From Actinomycetota bacterium (GTDB taxonomy: Bacteria > Actinomycetota > Coriobacteriia > Anaerosomatales > Anaerosomataceae): 64,000 nt of DNA. Position numbers and translations under genes: made by a program. Below the pieces are notes generated by a model, which saw only the letters and a program-made list of their open reading frames with translations, was not told where the DNA came from and ran no database searches. Of this stretch, positions 25,227-33,577 are shown piece after piece (position 1 is the stretch's first letter; every line of letters starts with the position of its first letter). The stretch covers positions 1-64,000 of the forward strand of contig WSXY01000005.1 in the NCBI GenBank assembly GCA_009773565.1, in the 5' to 3' direction.

Positions 25227-25574
25227 ATGGACACGCTACCGAATGCTCACGCGGCAATCATTCCAGCTGACAAGCTGCGATACTGCTTGGATCCGATTCA
25301 TCCGACTGGCAAACACAAGGCACGCGTGTTCGAGTCAGCCCTGGGAATCAGCCTCGACAACGTGCTCGTACTCGAGAGGATGCTGCGGGATGGAATCGTT
25401 TCACATCCGGCCAGGCTCAGGTGCACCTACACGGATGGAACCGAACGGTGGGTGGTAGACTGGGTAGTGCTGGGTCGCATGGGACCGCTCCGTTTTGTGT
25501 GTGCTTGGAACCGACCTCGAAGCGATCACTGCCCTCGCTTGGTATCGTGCTACTTGAAGAAGGTGAAGTCGTGA
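25227..25574 (+). CDS. DUF6883 domain protein
   Basis: The product has 115 residues. The pattern LPNAHAAIIPADKLRYCLDP, HPTGKHKARVFES, DNVLVLERML and a C-terminal LVSCYLKK matches my memory of the DUF6883 family. That family comprises small soluble proteins often found next to DUF4926 genes or as domains of polymorphic toxin systems. Its TGA overlaps the ATG of the DUF4926 gene, forming a two-gene unit. Function is unknown. A toxin-antitoxin-like or immunity role has been suspected from context only. Confidence 0.7.
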   Translation: MDTLPNAHAAIIPADKLRYCLDPIHPTGKHKARVFESALGISLDNVLVLERMLRDGIVSHPARLRCTYTDGTERWVVDWVVLGRMGPLRFVCAWNRPRSDHCPRLVSCYLKKVKS

Positions 25575-25798
25575 TGGTCGAGATCAAGGAACTGGATCTC
25601 GTTGAGGTGACCGAGGATCTGCCGAATGGCATTGTCGAAGGTGCTCAGGGGGTGGCAGTCGGCATTCAGGGCGACTCCTGTACCGTTGAGTTCATGGATG
25701 GCCAGGGCTACACCATCGGCCTGATCGATATCCCGAAAGGGTGTCTCGAAGTCGTCAATCTCCTTCCCTCAGGTGCATCGGTAGCCCGCGAGGATTAG
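25574..25798 (+). CDS. DUF4926 domain protein
   Basis: This 74-residue protein has an SH3-like pattern: LDLVEVTEDLPNGIVEGAQGVAVGI, then TVEFMDGQGYTIGLIDIPKGCLEVV. This is the DUF4926 signature as I know it. The ATG overlaps the preceding stop and is preceded by GAAGAAGGTGAAG. It is strictly paired with the DUF6883 gene. No biochemical role is known to me. Confidence 0.72.
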   Translation: MVEIKELDLVEVTEDLPNGIVEGAQGVAVGIQGDSCTVEFMDGQGYTIGLIDIPKGCLEVVNLLPSGASVARED

Positions 25799-25844: not shown

Positions 25845-25873
25845 TTGTATACCGAACATACGTTCGATATACT
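25845..25873 (+). promoter_or_regulatory. SOS promoter with LexA box in its spacer
   Basis: TTGTAT at 25845-25850 and TATACT at 25868-25873 are separated by exactly 17 bp. The spacer holds CGAACATACGTTCG (25853-25866), which fits the Bacillus/actinobacterial LexA consensus CGAAC-N4-GTTCG. A bound repressor would block RNA polymerase. It drives the DUF6504-dnaE2 operon. Confidence 0.88.
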
Positions 25874-25879
25874 GAACGT

Positions 25880-25919
25880 GCCGGGCGTGGACCCCCTGAG
25901 AACTCCTTCCACGCCCGGC
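25880..25919 (+). promoter_or_regulatory. 12-bp leader hairpin after the SOS start site
   Basis: GCCGGGCGTGGA and TCCACGCCCGGC form a perfect 12-bp stem around a 16-nt loop, starting about where transcription should begin, 25 bp before the DUF6504 ATG. A pyrimidine stretch TCCTTCCCTC follows, but no T run. It may be an attenuator or a 5'-stabilising structure. Confidence 0.6.
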
Positions 25920-25943
25920 TCCTTCCCTCAGAAGAGAGCTCCC

Positions 25944-26363
25944 ATGGGCCGCAATAGCGCTATCAAGGCGTTCGATCCCGCGAACAAGACCGGTATACCG
26001 CTTGATCTGTTCAGCGGCAGGGACACCCGACGACCGGTTATCGTCGAGCTGCTTCGAAGCCCGTGGATCGTTCGCGGCTCACAGGTCGCCTCGGGATCTT
26101 CAGGTCACGGCGGTAAGCGACGCGAGGAGGAGGTGGAGGTCTCCTGGGACGGCACCCGGCGGACGCCGGAGTCGTTCCGCATGCACGGGAAACGATATAG
26201 CGTTGATGCGCTTGTGCAGACGTGGGCGCTCGAGCGCGCATGGTGGGATCCTCGGGCACGACTCAGCCGACGGTGCTTCCGCGTGCTTGCGCGTGGCGGC
26301 CTCTACGACCTCGCCTACGACCGCATCACCGACAGATGGCTCCTCGTCGGCATTGTGGATTAG
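25944..26363 (+). CDS. DUF6504 family protein of the mutagenesis cassette
   Basis: The product has 139 residues. The ATG follows AGAAGAGAGCT. An upstream in-frame start at 25845 would lie inside the promoter and is rejected. The C-terminal half has the DUF6504 pattern: PESFRMHGKRYSVDALVQTWA, WWDPRARLSRRCFRVLARGGLYDLAYD, ending in a Trp-containing strand. In actinobacteria such genes travel with Y-family polymerase and dnaE2 genes. The role is unknown, possibly an accessory of translesion synthesis. dnaE2 begins 8 bp after its stop, on the same LexA-controlled transcript. Confidence 0.75.
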   Translation: MGRNSAIKAFDPANKTGIPLDLFSGRDTRRPVIVELLRSPWIVRGSQVASGSSGHGGKRREEEVEVSWDGTRRTPESFRMHGKRYSVDALVQTWALERAWWDPRARLSRRCFRVLARGGLYDLAYDRITDRWLLVGIVD

Positions 26364-26371
26364 CGGCCGTT

Positions 26372-29300
26372 ATGGGCGGTTTCGTGCACTTGCACGTACA
26401 TTCCCGGTTCAGCTTCATGGACGGAGCGGCTGATCTTGACGCGCTCATCGCCCGTGCGGTCGAGTTCGGTATGCCGGCACTCGCGCTCACCGACCACCAG
26501 GGGCTCTACGGTGCACTCCGCTTCTACCGCAAAGCGCTCAAGGCGGGCATCCGACCGATCATCGGCGTGGAGGTCGTTCTCGAGACCGCCGGACTCCCCG
26601 GTGAGGAAGGCGATCTGCCGCCCGAGGAGCGGTTACACCTTCCGGCGACGGTCGGCTTCGGGCGAGCAGCGGGGCGGGGTTTTCACCTCACGCTGCTCGT
26701 GAAGGACATGAACGGCTACCGCAACCTGTGCGGGTTGCTCTCGCGTGCGCACGTGCAGAGTCGAGACGAGCCGTCGGTCGTGTCGCTCGTGGATCTCGGG
26801 CGGCACTCGGAAGGCCTCATCGGTCTCTCGGGGTGCTCGAATGGCGAGGCGGGTGCTGCCGTGCTCGCGGGTCTCGGCTGGCGTGCCGAAGAAGCGCTCA
26901 GGCGCATCTCGCGGTGTTTCGCGTCTGGAGACTTCTACGTGGAGCTCATGCACACGCTCACTCCGGAAAGCCCGTCGTACGTGAGCGGCCTTATGGCGAT
27001 TGCAGAGCGGCTTCGTCTGCCGGTTGTGGCCACCAACAACGTTCACTATGTCGAGCGACGAGAGTTTCGATTGCACGATGTGCTCGCGGCAGCTGGTACG
27101 CATACCGAACTTCCGGGACCTTACGAGCGCCAGAACGCCGAGCTCTGGCTCAAGCCTGCCGGTGAGATGCGGCGGCTGTTCGCCGACATCCCGCAGGCAT
27201 GCGACGCCACACTTGAGATCACAGAGCGCTGCAACCTGGACCTTGGCCTGGGTGCGTTCCACTTTCCGGGCGCCGAGGTGGCAGTGGGAGAGACGCCGTA
27301 CTCGACGCTCGCGAAGGCGGCGTGGCAGGGGCTCGAGCGGCGGTACCGGCCGGTGACGCCGGCGTCGGTCGCGCGGCTCCAGCACGAGCTCTCGGTCATC
27401 CAGGACCTTGGCTTCTCGGAGTACTTCCTCGTGGTCAAGGACATCGTGGATTTCGCCCGTTCGCGCGGTATTCGCTACTCGGGACGGGGGAGCGCCGGCG
27501 ACAGCATCGTCACGTACCTCCTCGGCATCACGGACGCCGATCCTATCCGGCACGACCTGCTCTTCGAGCGTTTTCTCAATCCGAAGCGATGCCAGATGCC
27601 TGACATCGACGTGGACTTCGACTCGCGCCGCCGCGACGAGGTGATCGCCTACATCTACAGGCGCTTCGGGAACGAGCACGTGGCGATGGTGGCGACAGTG
27701 CAGAAGATGAGCGCCCGCAGTGCCGTCCGTACCGTCGCGCGCGCGTTCGACCTGCCAATCGCCGAGGTGAACGCCCTCTCGCGTCACCTGCCCTGGGTGA
27801 GCGCGCACCGCCTGCGTGAGGTGCTCGACACATACCCCGAGTGCGCGAGTCACCCGCTCAAAAACACCGCGCGTTATGGCCTGCTCACCGAGCTTGCCGG
27901 GGAGCTCTCGGGGTGTCCGATGCACCTGGGGACGCACCTCGGCGGCTTCATCATCACGCGGGAGCCGATCGCCACGTGGATGCCGCTGCAGTGGGCGGCC
28001 AAGGGCGTCGTCGTCTCGCAGTACGACAAGGACGACATCGAGATGCTCGGCCTCGCGAAGATGGACATCCTCGGCCTGCGGATGCACTCGGCGATCAGCG
28101 ACACCGTCACGCTCGCCCGCGCACGCGTGGGCGCCGACGCCGTGCCGGAGCCGTTCGACCTCACACCGGACGACCCGGCGGTCTACGAGCTCATCGCCTC
28201 GGCGGACACAGTCGGGATGTTCCAGCTGGAGAGTAGCGGCCAGCGTAACCTCGCGATGCGCCTCAAGGAGCGCACTTTCGAGGACATCATCGCCGCGATC
28301 TCGCTCTTTCGCCCCGGCCCGCTTGAAGCCGAGATGATCACGCCGTTCATCCGTCGGCGGCACGGCATCGAACCGGTGACCGTGCCACATCCCGCCATGG
28401 GTGAGATTCTGCGCGACAGCTACGGCGTCATCTTGTATCAGGAGCAGGTGCTCCGCGTGGCTCAGGCGATCGCGGGTTTCTCGCTCGCCGAGGCCGACAG
28501 CCTCCGCCGCGCGATGACCAAAGGCCGCTCCCGCGAGGAGATGGAGAAGATCCACGGTCACTTCGTGACGCGCGCAGTCGGTCTTGGCGTGCCACGAGCC
28601 GCTGCCGAGGAGGCGTTCCGGCAACTCGAGGGGTTCGCGGCGTACGGGTTCTGCAAGGCGCACGCGGCGTGCTTCGCGGTCGTCAGCTACGCAAGCGCGT
28701 GGCTCAAGCGCTACTACCCGGCCGAGTTCGCCGCATCGCTCCTCAACAACGAGCCGATGGGTTTCTACACGCCGCGCCTGGTGGTCAACGACGCGCGCCG
28801 TCACGGCATCGGCATCCTGCCACCGCACGTGAACGCGTCGCGCGGCACGTACACGGTCGAGGATGACGGCCGCTCGATCCGCGTGGGATTCCGCGACGTG
28901 CACGAGATGACGCATCGCCTTCTCGGCGTGATAGAACGTGAGCAAGACGTACGACCCTTCCGTGACCTCGCCGACTTTCTGCGCCGCACGCGAGCCGAGG
29001 CAAACGCAGCTGAGAGCCTCATCCGCGTCGGTGCGCTTGACGGCCTCGGCTCAACCGACGCCGGACGCCCGTCAACTCGCGACGAGCTTCTCGCGCTCCT
29101 GCCCGAGATGAAGGCGGTCATCGCGCGTGAGGGTGTTGCCGGCGACGACGTGCTCGTGCTCGCGCCAGCCAAAGCGCGCGAACCCGAGGACCCGACGCAC
29201 GTCTCGGGCTGGTCGCGGGCGCGGCGTCTCTCGGCGGAGCTTGAAATCGTCGGGCTTTCGCTCGAGTGTCACCCACTTGCGCTTGCCCGCGCGGACCTGG

Positions 29301-29752
29301 AGCGCCGTGGCGTCACGTGGGCGCGCGACCTGCCGCGCCTGGGTGATCGCACCCGCGTGCGCGTGGCGGGCGTACGCGAGCGCGCGCAAACCCCGCGGAC
29401 CCGCTCGGGCAAACGCACATGCTTCCTCACGCTCGAAGACCCGACCGGACTTCTCGACGTCGTCGTGTTCGAGAACGCGCTTAACCGGGCGGGGGAGACG
29501 ATCGTGAAGCATCGCGCATACATCATCGATGGCGTACTCCAGAACAACCACGAGCGCGGCATCGCGATCATCGCCGACCGCATCGAGCCGTACGTGGTGC
29601 GCACAGCTGGTGGCGCGCACGTGCGCATGCGTCGCGGTGTGCCGAGCGGCCCGATGGGTCCGTCACTCGGGGGCGCAGGTGCACCCGAAGAGGAGTCGTG
29701 GGCGGCAGCTGAAGCGGCGCTCGCGGGCGCGCCAACCGGCTACGACGGCTGA
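26372..29752 (+). CDS. dnaE2: Error-prone DNA polymerase III alpha subunit (DnaE2 type)
   Basis: The product has 1126 residues. The ATG at 26372 opens MGGFVHLHVHSRFSFMDGA, the PHP domain start. The C-family polymerase core includes PDIDVDFDSRRRDEV with the catalytic Asp pair, GRGSAGDS, and FQLESSGQ. Helix-hairpin-helix elements and a C-terminal OB-fold (TGLLDVVVFE) follow. Length, the MDGA PHP motif and the link to DUF6504 and a Y-family polymerase indicate DnaE2, the SOS-induced mutagenic polymerase, rather than the replicative DnaE1. It is the second gene behind the LexA-box promoter. Its 3' end overlaps dinB convergently by 13 bp. No epsilon-type proofreading domain is seen. Confidence 0.9.
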   Translation: MGGFVHLHVHSRFSFMDGAADLDALIARAVEFGMPALALTDHQGLYGALRFYRKALKAGIRPIIGVEVVLETAGLPGEEGDLPPEERLHLPATVGFGRAAGRGFHLTLLVKDMNGYRNLCGLLSRAHVQSRDEPSVVSLVDLGRHSEGLIGLSGCSNGEAGAAVLAGLGWRAEEALRRISRCFASGDFYVELMHTLTPESPSYVSGLMAIAERLRLPVVATNNVHYVERREFRLHDVLAAAGTHTELPGPYERQNAELWLKPAGEMRRLFADIPQACDATLEITERCNLDLGLGAFHFPGAEVAVGETPYSTLAKAAWQGLERRYRPVTPASVARLQHELSVIQDLGFSEYFLVVKDIVDFARSRGIRYSGRGSAGDSIVTYLLGITDADPIRHDLLFERFLNPKRCQMPDIDVDFDSRRRDEVIAYIYRRFGNEHVAMVATVQKMSARSAVRTVARAFDLPIAEVNALSRHLPWVSAHRLREVLDTYPECASHPLKNTARYGLLTELAGELSGCPMHLGTHLGGFIITREPIATWMPLQWAAKGVVVSQYDKDDIEMLGLAKMDILGLRMHSAISDTVTLARARVGADAVPEPFDLTPDDPAVYELIASADTVGMFQLESSGQRNLAMRLKERTFEDIIAAISLFRPGPLEAEMITPFIRRRHGIEPVTVPHPAMGEILRDSYGVILYQEQVLRVAQAIAGFSLAEADSLRRAMTKGRSREEMEKIHGHFVTRAVGLGVPRAAAEEAFRQLEGFAAYGFCKAHAACFAVVSYASAWLKRYYPAEFAASLLNNEPMGFYTPRLVVNDARRHGIGILPPHVNASRGTYTVEDDGRSIRVGFRDVHEMTHRLLGVIEREQDVRPFRDLADFLRRTRAEANAAESLIRVGALDGLGSTDAGRPSTRDELLALLPEMKAVIAREGVAGDDVLVLAPAKAREPEDPTHVSGWSRARRLSAELEIVGLSLECHPLALARADLERRGVTWARDLPRLGDRTRVRVAGVRERAQTPRTRSGKRTCFLTLEDPTGLLDVVVFENALNRAGETIVKHRAYIIDGVLQNNHERGIAIIADRIEPYVVRTAGGAHVRMRRGVPSGPMGPSLGGAGAPEEESWAAAEAALAGAPTGYDG

Positions 29753-30966
29753 GTGTCCGGGCCGGCGGGACCCTCGTGTCGCGAACTGATGCCCCGGCTG
29801 ATCGCCCCGTCACCGAAGCGCGCCTTGACCGCATCGACTCCCTCGGCAAGCGCTTTGCGCTTCGGACGCTCGTCGGCGGCTTTGTCGCCCCCGAACAGAT
29901 CGAGCTGCACGGCGGTCTCCTCGAAACCGCTCGTACCGAAGCCGATAAGCCGCAGTCCTGCTCCCGGCGACCACGACTGCCGGAGCAGTTCGATCGCCAC
30001 TGGCAGCATCTCCTCGGGCAGGTCGGTGGCGACATCGACGGTCCGGCGGATCGTTGGCGTCGTGAAGTCCGCATACCGCAATTTCACCGTGAACGTGCGT
30101 GCCGCAAGGCCGCTCTTTCTGAGACGTTCCGCCACGTGGGACACAAGTCCCGAAAGCGCCCGCTCGACCTCCGCCCGCTCGCGCACATCCGTAGCGAAGG
30201 TGTGCTCGTTCGAAACCGACTTCGGGTCGCGCTCGTAGTGAACGGGACGCGGGTCGATTCCGCGTGCACGCGCGGTGAGGTCCGGTCCGTATCGGCTGAG
30301 AAAGTCCCGGGCGGTGGCGTCATCGAGTGCGGCAAGCTCACCGAGGCGCCGAATCCCCACGCGCGCAAGTTGCGTGGCCGTACGTGCACCGACGCCAGGG
30401 AGCACCCTCACGGGAAGCGCTGCGAGAAACTCGGCTTCCTCGCCTGGCCACACGACGGTGATCCCGTGCGGCTTCTTGTGATCGGAGGCGATCTTCGCGA
30501 TGGTCTTGCACGATCCCAGGCCGATCGAACACGACAGCCCGAGCGTGTCGACCTCGGCCTGAATGCGGCGCGCGATCGAAAGCGGATGCTCGCCGGTGGT
30601 TCCTGGCGTGATATCGAGATACGCCTCGTCGATTGACGTTGGCTCCACGTGTGGCGTGTACGTCTCAAGAATCGCCCGCACCGCGCGCGACATCTCGCCG
30701 TAGCGCCCGAAGTGTGACGTCACCCAGACGGCATCCGGACAGAGCCGCTTCGCCTGCGCCGACGGCATCGCCGACCGAACGCCAAAGGCGCGCGCCTCGT
30801 ACGAGCATGTCGACACGACCCCGCGTTTCGTCGGGTCACCGCCGACGATGACCGCCTTGCCCCGCAACTCCGGATCATCGAGCTGCTCCACGGCGGCGAA
30901 GAACGCGTCCATGTCCATGTGGGCCACGGCGCGTCCGGTCCAGAGCCTCTCGGTCGGTTCACTCAT
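29740..30966 (-). CDS. dinB: Y-family DNA polymerase IV
   Basis: The product has 408 residues. Catalytic motifs are intact: AHMDMDAFFAAVEQ near the N-terminus and SIDEAYLD near residue 105, so this is an active polymerase and not the catalytically dead ImuB. Helix-hairpin-helix (VLPGVGARTATQLARVGI) and little-finger domains follow, and VQLDLFG at 353-359 is a canonical beta-clamp binding motif. I start it at the ATG at 30966. In-frame sequence upstream is intergenic. A -10 box sits only six bases upstream, so the mRNA may be leaderless. It converges on dnaE2 and probably works with it in translesion synthesis. Confidence 0.92.
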   Translation of the reverse strand: MSEPTERLWTGRAVAHMDMDAFFAAVEQLDDPELRGKAVIVGGDPTKRGVVSTCSYEARAFGVRSAMPSAQAKRLCPDAVWVTSHFGRYGEMSRAVRAILETYTPHVEPTSIDEAYLDITPGTTGEHPLSIARRIQAEVDTLGLSCSIGLGSCKTIAKIASDHKKPHGITVVWPGEEAEFLAALPVRVLPGVGARTATQLARVGIRRLGELAALDDATARDFLSRYGPDLTARARGIDPRPVHYERDPKSVSNEHTFATDVRERAEVERALSGLVSHVAERLRKSGLAARTFTVKLRYADFTTPTIRRTVDVATDLPEEMLPVAIELLRQSWSPGAGLRLIGFGTSGFEETAVQLDLFGGDKAADERPKRKALAEGVDAVKARFGDGAISRGISSRHEGPAGPDTQPS

Positions 30967-31045
30967 GCCTTCAGTGTAGTGCGCGCATGCGACACGGGTA
31001 ACCCACAGTGCCGTAGTCGGGTAACCCGGCCCTCGGTTAGACTGG
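30967..31045. promoter_or_regulatory. Divergent dinB/nfo promoter region with two identical 10-bp repeats
   Basis: CGGGTAACCC occurs at 30995-31004 and again at 31018-31027, 23 bp apart. Each copy is nearly self-complementary (GGGT-A-ACCC). For dinB, TACACT (minus strand, 30978-30973) is a -10 box six bases from the ATG, and one repeat covers its -35 position. For nfo, TAGACT at 31038-31043 is a -10 candidate. The repeats look like an operator shared by both genes. Confidence 0.5.
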
Positions 31046-31071
31046 ACACTCGCTTCCGAGAGGAGTCTCCC

Positions 31072-31950
31072 GTGTTGATTGGCGCACATGTCGGTGTCGG
31101 CGACGGCTTTCCTGGATCGATCTCCTACGCCGAGAGCGTGGGCTGCGAGGCCATCCAGGTCTTTGCCAAGTCGCCGCGTCAGTGGCGCGCGAAGTCGATA
31201 CCTCTTGAGACCGCAGCTGCATTCCGCGAGCGGCGCGCAGCCTCGGACATCGCGTTCGTGTGCACACATACGGCATACCTCATCAACCTCGGGTCAGAAG
31301 ACGACGAACTCTGGGAGAAGTCGTGGCGGGCACTTGCCGACGAGCTTGACCGCGCAGCACTACTGGGCGCCGACGCGACCGTCTCGCACATGGGCACGAA
31401 CCGCACGGGAGACCTCGCGCAAGGCGCGGCGCGTATTGCGGAGGGCATCACTCGGGCATTCGAAGCGGCCCCGACCGGCGTCCTGCTGCTCGAGAACACA
31501 GCCGGTGCCGGAACCACGTTCGGCAGCGGTCCCGATGAGATCGGAGCCGTTCTCTCGCTCCTCGATGCCCATTGGCGCGAGAGACTCGGCGTGTGCCTCG
31601 ATAGTTGCCACGCCCACGCTGCCGGATGGGACTTGTCGGATGCTCGTGGCTGGGATGGCTTTGTCGGCGGGCTCGAAGCCTGCTGCGGTCCAGGTCGCAT
31701 TCACGTCGTCCACGCCAACGACTCCACGTTCGCCACAGGCGAGCACCGCGACCGTCACGCGTGGGTGGGCGAGGGGACGATCGGTTCCGCCGGATTCGCA
31801 GCGATGTTCGCCGATACGCGTCTCGCGAATGCCGTTGCAATCCTCGAGATGTCAGGCGATGTCCCCGAGAAGGATCGTCTGAACGTCAGTCGGCTGCAGG
31901 AACTCCGTGCAGCTTCTTCGGCACCCGGGTCCTCCGCCTCGCGACCGTGA
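31072..31950 (+). CDS. nfo: Endonuclease IV (apurinic/apyrimidinic endonuclease)
   Basis: The product has 292 residues, a TIM-barrel trinuclear zinc enzyme that cuts 5' of abasic sites in base excision repair. The N-terminus LIGAHVGVGDGF, then VFAKSPRQW, CTHTAYLINLGS, LENTAG, VCLDSCHAHAAGWD and VVHANDST-HRDRHAWVGEG show the ordered metal-binding His, Glu and Asp residues. The GTG start follows CGAGAGGAGTCTCCC. A longer frame would run back into the dinB region. Its last 65 bp overlap the 3' end of the convergent DEDD/GIY-YIG gene. Confidence 0.93.
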   Translation: MLIGAHVGVGDGFPGSISYAESVGCEAIQVFAKSPRQWRAKSIPLETAAAFRERRAASDIAFVCTHTAYLINLGSEDDELWEKSWRALADELDRAALLGADATVSHMGTNRTGDLAQGAARIAEGITRAFEAAPTGVLLLENTAGAGTTFGSGPDEIGAVLSLLDAHWRERLGVCLDSCHAHAAGWDLSDARGWDGFVGGLEACCGPGRIHVVHANDSTFATGEHRDRHAWVGEGTIGSAGFAAMFADTRLANAVAILEMSGDVPEKDRLNVSRLQELRAASSAPGSSASRP

Positions 31951-33577
31951 TGATCTGCCCGACGAACTGAGCGGTGCTTCCCAGCAAGGGTACCTCTGCC
32001 GGCGATTGCTGCCGACGATACGTGTCAATCACAAAGACATCCCGTAGGTTTCGTTGTGAGATGTCGTAGGCATCTTCCGCAAGGCGCTCAGCAGAGTACA
32101 CGCGTGCAACCGCCCGTCGAAGTGCCTCTTCAAATGAACCGTCACTGACGCTTGTGCGTGTGAACCTCAGTGTTCGACCGAGACGTCCGTGACGGACAAG
32201 GTGAACGACGACCGAATCGTCAAGCCCCTCAATGATGGCGACTCCCGGTTCTGCGGCCGCCGCGCGTACCACCTCGAGACCCGACATCGTGCGGTCCAGT
32301 GCCCGTATTGCGTCGCGGTGCAAGATGGCTTCTTCATAGTGCAGGTCCGTGGCGGCGCGCTCTCGAAGTGCCTGTAGCGCCGCTCTCAGACGCAGTGCGC
32401 CTCCATCAAAGACCCCAAGTGCGGCCTCAACACGACGACGGTATTCCTCAGGGGTGATTGCGCCTGTGCAGGGCCGGGGACATCCGCTCGACGCGCGCTC
32501 GGTGCATATCGGCGGTGTGGAGTTCAGCCTCCGCGTGCAACGACGAAGTCCAAAGCGTTGCTTCAGCGTGTTAGCGAGCGTCTCGGCCGCCCATACGTTG
32601 GTGAGCGGCCCGATGGACTGTCCAGTTTTTGGCCGGCGCTTCACAACCCGGAAGGACGGATAGCGAGAGGTGACGTCCACGCGTATATACGCGGGCGTGC
32701 GGCCGCGTTGTTGGTCCTTGTTGAACCGCGGCTGATAGCGGGCAATCAGGCGGCTTTCAATCAGCAATGCATCCAGATCGGACGCACAGGCCAGATGCTG
32801 CACCGATGTGGCCTCACTCGCCGGGTGCGAATGTCCTGGAATTGTCGGGCCGTAGAAGTAGCCACGCACGCGCATGCGCAGGTTCTTTGCGCGCCCGATG
32901 TAGATGACCGCCCCTGCGGAGTCCCGGAAGAGGTAGACGCCGGACGAATCCGGTAGGTGCGTCGCCAGCACAAGCTTGCTTGCAAGAACGCCTTGCCGGG
33001 CCTGGCCGCAGAAGCGAGCGACATCCTCGGCCGTTGCAAAGCCCTGGTTCTCTAACTCGACAAGCATCAATTGAAGAATCTGGGCCGTTGCAAGCGCATC
33101 AGCAGGCGCCCGGTGGTTGGGAACGGCGTCGACTCCGTAATACGACGCAAGAACACGAAGGTTGTGCCGGTCAAGCTCCGGGTGGAGTCGCCGTGCAAGT
33201 GTGAGTGTGTCAAGAACCGGTCGCGAGAATGACGTACCCCACGCGCGTTCAGCTTCGTAGTCGAGAAAGCCCATATCAAAACGATGGTTGTGAGCGACGA
33301 GAACCGCATCTCCCACAAACTCGCGGAACCCGATCATGACTTCTTCGACCCGGGGCGCATCGGCAACCATCAGATCATTGATGCCGGTGAGCGCCTGGAT
33401 TGAGGCGGGGATAGGCTCGTCGGGGCAGACCAGCGCCTGGAAGTGATTGACGATGACGCCTGCTCGCACCATAACGGCGCCGATCTCGATGATTCCGCTG
33501 CTGCCGGGGCGGCAGCCGGTCGTCTCGATGTCGACGGCGACGAACTCTCCATGCGTGAGCGACGTAGCACCGAGCAT
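31886..33577 (-). CDS. DEDD 3'-5' exonuclease fused to a UvrC/Cho-like GIY-YIG nuclease
   Basis: The product has 563 residues. Residues 10-180 are a DnaQ-like exonuclease: DIE at 16-18, HNHRFD with Asp 101, and HRAPAD with His 155 and Asp 160, giving the DEDDh set. Residues 210-290 are a GIY-YIG domain (GVYLF at 213, VIYIG at 224-228, catalytic Glu in LLIESRLI). The rest resembles the UvrC middle region. The architecture is known in actinobacteria (for example mycobacterial homologues) and is thought to act in repair outside the main UvrABC pathway. It sits beside SOS-type repair genes here. The ATG has no strong ribosome site. Confidence 0.88.
   Translation of the reverse strand: MLGATSLTHGEFVAVDIETTGCRPGSSGIIEIGAVMVRAGVIVNHFQALVCPDEPIPASIQALTGINDLMVADAPRVEEVMIGFREFVGDAVLVAHNHRFDMGFLDYEAERAWGTSFSRPVLDTLTLARRLHPELDRHNLRVLASYYGVDAVPNHRAPADALATAQILQLMLVELENQGFATAEDVARFCGQARQGVLASKLVLATHLPDSSGVYLFRDSAGAVIYIGRAKNLRMRVRGYFYGPTIPGHSHPASEATSVQHLACASDLDALLIESRLIARYQPRFNKDQQRGRTPAYIRVDVTSRYPSFRVVKRRPKTGQSIGPLTNVWAAETLANTLKQRFGLRRCTRRLNSTPPICTERASSGCPRPCTGAITPEEYRRRVEAALGVFDGGALRLRAALQALRERAATDLHYEEAILHRDAIRALDRTMSGLEVVRAAAAEPGVAIIEGLDDSVVVHLVRHGRLGRTLRFTRTSVSDGSFEEALRRAVARVYSAERLAEDAYDISQRNLRDVFVIDTYRRQQSPAEVPLLGSTAQFVGQIITVARRRTRVPKKLHGVPAAD

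Follow-up and report, generated by a model that had tools for sequence, protein, structure and literature searches.

Organization of the locus

The window considered here is the whole 64,000-nucleotide stretch of DNA that was analysed. All five genes reported by the initial annotation between 25845 and 33577 are present: DUF6504, dnaE2, dinB, nfo and a DEDD/GIY-YIG gene. The features of the region are:

25845-25873, + strand: promoter-like region, with TTGTAT at 25845-25850, a 17-nt spacer containing the SOS box, and TATACT at 25868-25873
25853-25866, no strand assigned: LexA (SOS) box CGAACATACGTTCG, exact match
25944-26363, + strand: DUF6504 gene, predicted stand-alone ImuB-C of 139 aa (PF20114)
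25995-26012, + strand: clamp-like motif IPLDLF, DUF6504 residues 18-23 (conservation across 54 orthologs)
26115-26360, + strand: predicted ImuB-C beta-barrel domain, residues 58-139 (AlphaFold model)
26372-29752, + strand: dnaE2, C-family polymerase of error-prone type (position in the tree, catalytic Asp triad)
29740-30966, - strand: dinB (Pol IV), with catalytic, clamp and RecA-NT-like motifs
31072-31950, + strand: nfo (endonuclease IV), a neighbour outside the proposed unit
31886-33577, - strand: DEDD exonuclease and GIY-YIG/UvrC-like protein, a neighbour outside the proposed unit

The DUF6504 gene most likely starts at the ATG at 25944 and not at 25845, so the stretch 25845-25943, with which the initially annotated region began, is upstream sequence carrying the exact SOS box. 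Besides this box, the annotation missed the clamp-like motif IPLDLF of DUF6504 and a motif resembling the RecA N terminus that follows the clamp motif of DinB. The dnaE2 gene starts 8 bp 3' of the DUF6504 end. Convergent with it is dinB, and 13 bp at the end of dnaE2 are shared by the two genes; nfo is divergent from dinB, and the DEDD/GIY-YIG gene is convergent on nfo.

In this genome, feoB and the SOS operon are separated by a gene for DUF6883 and, after it, one for DUF4926 (25227-25798). This arrangement is absent from the other loci examined and looks like an inserted two-gene cassette.

DUF6504 as a stand-alone ImuB C-terminal domain

Profile comparisons indicate that DUF6504 is the ImuB C-terminal domain (ImuB-C) made as a separate protein. 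PF20114 scores 30.3 bits on the window protein (cut-off 24.2) and 22.9 bits, just under that cut-off, on the C terminus of the Croceicoccus ImuB (E-value 1e-4); it has no match to the C terminus of the Janthinobacterium ImuB. Using hhalign, residues 70-138 of DUF6504 align to the last ~80 residues of four ImuBs (E-value 1e-4, probability 57%). This homology rules out DUF6504 as an ImuA substitute, contrary to the proposal that it replaces an ImuA-like gene. The ImuB-C domain was named by Aravind 2013 (PMC3765255), and stand-alone ImuB-C proteins with DnaE2 were described by Timinskas 2019 (PMC6511836) and Timinskas 2026 (PMC12926913).

In the AlphaFold model of DUF6504, six strands form a barrel (residues 58-139), with pLDDT values of 80-96 in most blocks and 69 in one loop block, preceded by an N-terminal tail of low confidence. 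Foldseek and VIA-align returned no significant PDB match for the ImuB-C model; the best, monellin (Z ~5), is not meaningful. When ImuB-C was modelled as a fusion with the DnaE2 PHP domain (locus L213, stop read through), the pTM was 0.64, the linker was disordered and the model did not support docking.

Conservation and joint loss of DUF6504 and DnaE2

Of 296 genomes of the class Coriobacteriia, 57 have a protein above the PF20114 cut-off, all of them in the order of the window; the named relatives are Coriobacteriia and Anaerosomatales MAGs. In all 54 loci with room for it, dnaE2 lies downstream of DUF6504 on the same strand (at most ~35 bp away in 51), and the DUF6504-DnaE2 linkage noted in the window thus holds in relatives. 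Three loci of family f3 have 1.1-3.9 kb between the two genes (L064 in G053, L065 in G037 and L072 in G061).

The PF20114 genome search missed a clear DUF6504 ortholog in genome G047 (L292, 7008-7424; 69% identical), where both DUF6504 and dnaE2 are present. PF20114 therefore under-reports the clade, and since it can miss true members, absences called from this profile alone carry less weight. DnaE2 was undetected in six genomes of the order that are >90% complete (G069, G059, G063, G071, G022 and G129), in which PF20114 also had no significant match. DnaE2 and DUF6504 co-occur: by these searches, neither was found in these six genomes, in 21 Coriobacteriia outside the order or in two genomes of the Rubrobacter family.

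We did not detect ImuA or ImuB in the genome of the window (98.5% complete), in which one Y-family and one RecA protein exceed the cut-off. A canonical imuA'-imuB locus elsewhere, which would have offered this DnaE2 another partner, is therefore not apparent.

SOS-type promoter

In 53/54 orthologous loci, the 200 bp upstream of DUF6504 contain an exact LexA box, compared with 0.01 expected from base composition. Its flanks are conserved at a fixed distance, with a -10 element TATACT in 34/53 and a -35 element TTGTAT in 36/53; a generic promoter scan reported nothing at its threshold. LexA boxes occur at recA and lexA of this genome as well. SOS-like boxes are found at 13 places genome-wide versus 12 for a reversed-pattern control, and so are not enriched; they are informative only by position, at recA, lexA and the DUF6504-dnaE2 operon. 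By the criterion of a promoter box, DUF6504 and dnaE2 are predicted to belong to the LexA regulon.

The polymerase and its relatives

The best NCBIfam model for the window polymerase is a DnaE1 model, and its class is therefore decided by the tree, in which it falls in the DnaE2 clade, apart from 18 DnaE1s (four further DnaE1 rows were left out). The genome has its own DnaE1 on contig C14. The catalytic Asp triad is kept in 43/43 DnaE2s, and the DnaE2s whose partner ImuB-C is extended group together in a single clade (SH-aLRT 98.7, from a short search).

At the PHP metal-ligand site, ATN(D/N)VHY, Asn replaces Asp in 24/43 DnaE2s, including that of the window (ATNNVHY), the others having Asp. 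The proofreading exonuclease activity of the PHP domain may thus have been lost in part of the order. The DnaE1 match in G047 is split in two (contig C10:2071-5200), probably owing to a frameshift or an assembly error.

A clamp-like motif in the tail of DUF6504

The tail of DUF6504 is variable across the 54 orthologs save for a few spots, one of which has the order consensus GQPLDLF (IPLDLF in the window) and is a candidate beta-clamp motif of the QxxLF / QxLxLF type. Conservation is highest at L22 (54/54), D/E21 (51/54) and F23 (49/54); the first motif position, residue 18, is Q in 34/54 and I in the window protein. A similar extension occurs in Rubrobacter tropicus (L183), two genomes of family f36 that group with it, and G298, with the motif reduced to 'LF' in Rubrobacter and G298. 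We refer to f36 as Rubrobacter-family because it groups with R. tropicus, a named genome. No such extension is present in the stand-alone ImuB-Cs examined from other actinobacteria, in which the protein begins at the barrel.

The motif resembles the QLDLF or QLDLL found near the C terminus of DinBs from the same genomes. A profile comparison of the DUF6504 tail with DinB tails aligned only the clamp motif (p 0.006, probability 6%), and a RecA-NT motif in the tail past it was rejected on this basis.

An internal QxxLF/MF/IF motif is present in 14/18 DnaE1s (QVSMF in this genome). Among 20 sampled DnaE2s of the order, 19 have no match at the site of the DnaE1 clamp motif, and the remaining one has a chance-like QLALL.

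Alternatively, LDLF may not be a clamp motif, and ImuB-C may recognise damaged DNA, as suggested in Aravind 2013 (PMC3765255), or only regulate a DnaE2 that reaches DNA clamp-free. The lack of a fold match pointing to function and the variable first motif position speak for this. However, the motif fits the clamp consensus and is conserved amid variable surroundings in a low-order tail, and DnaE2 itself lacks such a motif; we consider this alternative improbable.

DinB and the nuclease genes as probable bystanders

The DinB of the window looks catalytic from its motifs and has a VQLDLFG clamp motif and then the RecA-NT-like motif, in line with the initial description of a fully catalytic polymerase with its own clamp motif. 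Exactly one Y-family protein was found in each genome of the order tested, with clamp and RecA-NT-like motifs wherever these were read.

The initial annotation proposed a two-polymerase module with nuclease partners, which the comparative data do not support. The dinB-nfo gap has no exact SOS box in any of 38 loci (three have one with a single mismatch). Gene order across the order could suggest a five-gene repair and mutagenesis island that includes DinB, Nfo and the DEDD/GIY-YIG nuclease, but the collinear block takes in PTPS and the DtxR/FeoA regulator on one side and a gene for a Mg-chelatase-like protein on the other. Because these unrelated flanks are equally collinear, the dinB-nfo adjacency carries little weight and was ruled out as a sign of function. 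The SOS box also stands solely at DUF6504, and the pair has been lost where the other genes were kept, making such an island very improbable.

The loss of the pair is seen most directly at the locus of G069 and G059, where the DtxR gene adjoins dinB-nfo and both the pair and the SOS box are gone. The presence of DinB was tested in three of the six pair-less genomes, and it is kept in all three: in G069 and G059 and, at the genome level, in G063. Furthermore, no Y-family protein was detected in four Rubrobacter-family genomes (G334, G416, G306 and G320) or in G298, and the pair, with an extended ImuB-C, is found in three of these five (G334, G416 and G298). G334 and G306 are single contigs; the absence from G298 is less certain because that genome is in 150 contigs. 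On the basis of the collinear block, the missing exact box, the retention of dinB-nfo where the pair is gone and the pairs in Y-family-free genomes, DinB, Nfo and the DEDD/GIY-YIG nuclease are probably bystanders and not members of the unit.

In several other actinobacterial families (L168, L178-L182), a stand-alone ImuB-C gene is followed directly by a PolY gene, without DnaE2, an arrangement that fits the known ImuB-C-PolY association.

DinB may still help within the order, as each genome tested has one, with clamp and RecA-NT-like motifs wherever these were read. The fullest version of this reading would be a four-part mutasome of DnaE2, ImuB-C, RecA and a DinB supplied by the convergent neighbour, in line with the DnaE2-[ImuB-C]-PolY-RecA system proposed for Tessaracoccus in Timinskas 2026 (PMC12926913). 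DinB looks catalytic, has both motifs and adjoins the pair in most of the order, and in related actinobacteria the genes for ImuB-C, DnaE2 and a PolY that looks active share a strand. Against this, dinB is convergent and without an exact SOS box, it persists where the pair is lost, and extended ImuB-C/DnaE2 pairs occur where no Y-family protein was detected. We therefore regard the four-part mutasome as unlikely.

Proposed mechanism

Given the analyses presented above, we propose that the SOS box, DUF6504 and dnaE2 constitute a LexA-controlled two-gene operon in which ImuB-C links DnaE2 to the clamp and no polymerase-like ImuB takes part, and we put the probability of this at roughly 60%. DNA damage would take LexA off the box within the promoter spacer, and DUF6504 and DnaE2 would then be co-expressed. 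The barrel would hold DnaE2, itself without a clamp motif; the barrel of Mycobacterium tuberculosis ImuB has been modelled to bind the DnaE2 PHP domain (Timinskas 2026, PMC12926913). The flexible N-terminal tail would bring the pair to the sliding clamp at a stalled fork, where synthesis is expected to be mutagenic. DinB, whose gene has no exact SOS box, would act independently as a Pol IV, and Nfo and the DEDD/GIY-YIG nuclease would be unrelated. A more tentative proposal, to which we give slightly less than even odds, is that DnaE2 and a clamp-binding ImuB-C form a two-protein minimal mutasome with neither a Y-family polymerase-like protein nor ImuA, in its purest form in those Rubrobacter-family genomes where no Y-family protein was detected.

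In known mutasomes, DnaE2 is thought to need ImuB, a dead polymerase, for access to the clamp. If a 139-residue ImuB-C with a clamp hook suffices, the essential part of ImuB would be the C-terminal end, with the polymerase core dispensable. DnaE2 mutagenesis could then be reconstituted from two proteins, and lineages without Y-family polymerases would provide a natural test.

Comparison with known systems

As in the lexA-imuB-C-polY operon of Geobacter sulfurreducens (PMC6511836), a stand-alone ImuB-C is under SOS control, here as judged by the box; the polymerase is Y-family there and C-family here. With the ImuA'-ImuB-DnaE2 mutasome of M. tuberculosis, the locus shares SOS control, DnaE2, the ImuB C-terminal domain and a clamp or clamp-like motif on the ImuB-side protein with none on DnaE2, whereas the ImuB-like protein here has no Y-family core and there is no ImuA.

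The putative DnaE2-[ImuB-C]-PolY-RecA system (exemplar Tessaracoccus lapidicaptus; PMC12926913) likewise combines DnaE2 and ImuB-C, in a genome that has a PolY which looks active and bears a RecA-NT-like motif. Unlike that system, PolY here is convergent, has no SOS box and is kept without the pair, and PolY was not found in the four Rubrobacter-family genomes and G298.

The closest likeness is to the putative DnaE2-[ImuB-C] system (subgroup DnaE2B, exemplar Arthrobacter alpinus; Timinskas 2026, PMC12926913), which is also restricted to Actinobacteria and has DnaE2 and a stand-alone ImuB-C without ImuA or ImuB. In the window, both genes lie in one putative operon, as in a DnaE2-[ImuB-C] operon, and the absence of detectable ImuA and ImuB fits DnaE2B. 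The locus is thus a variant of this described, itself putative, system. The ImuB-C here differs in its extension and clamp-like motif, the comparison being with the main-text description and not with the A. alpinus sequence. The main texts of Aravind 2013, Timinskas 2019 and Timinskas 2026 do not mention a clamp motif in stand-alone ImuB-C. An ImuB-C with a conserved N-terminal extension and a clamp-like motif, while its DnaE2 has no counterpart of the DnaE1 motif, looks new.
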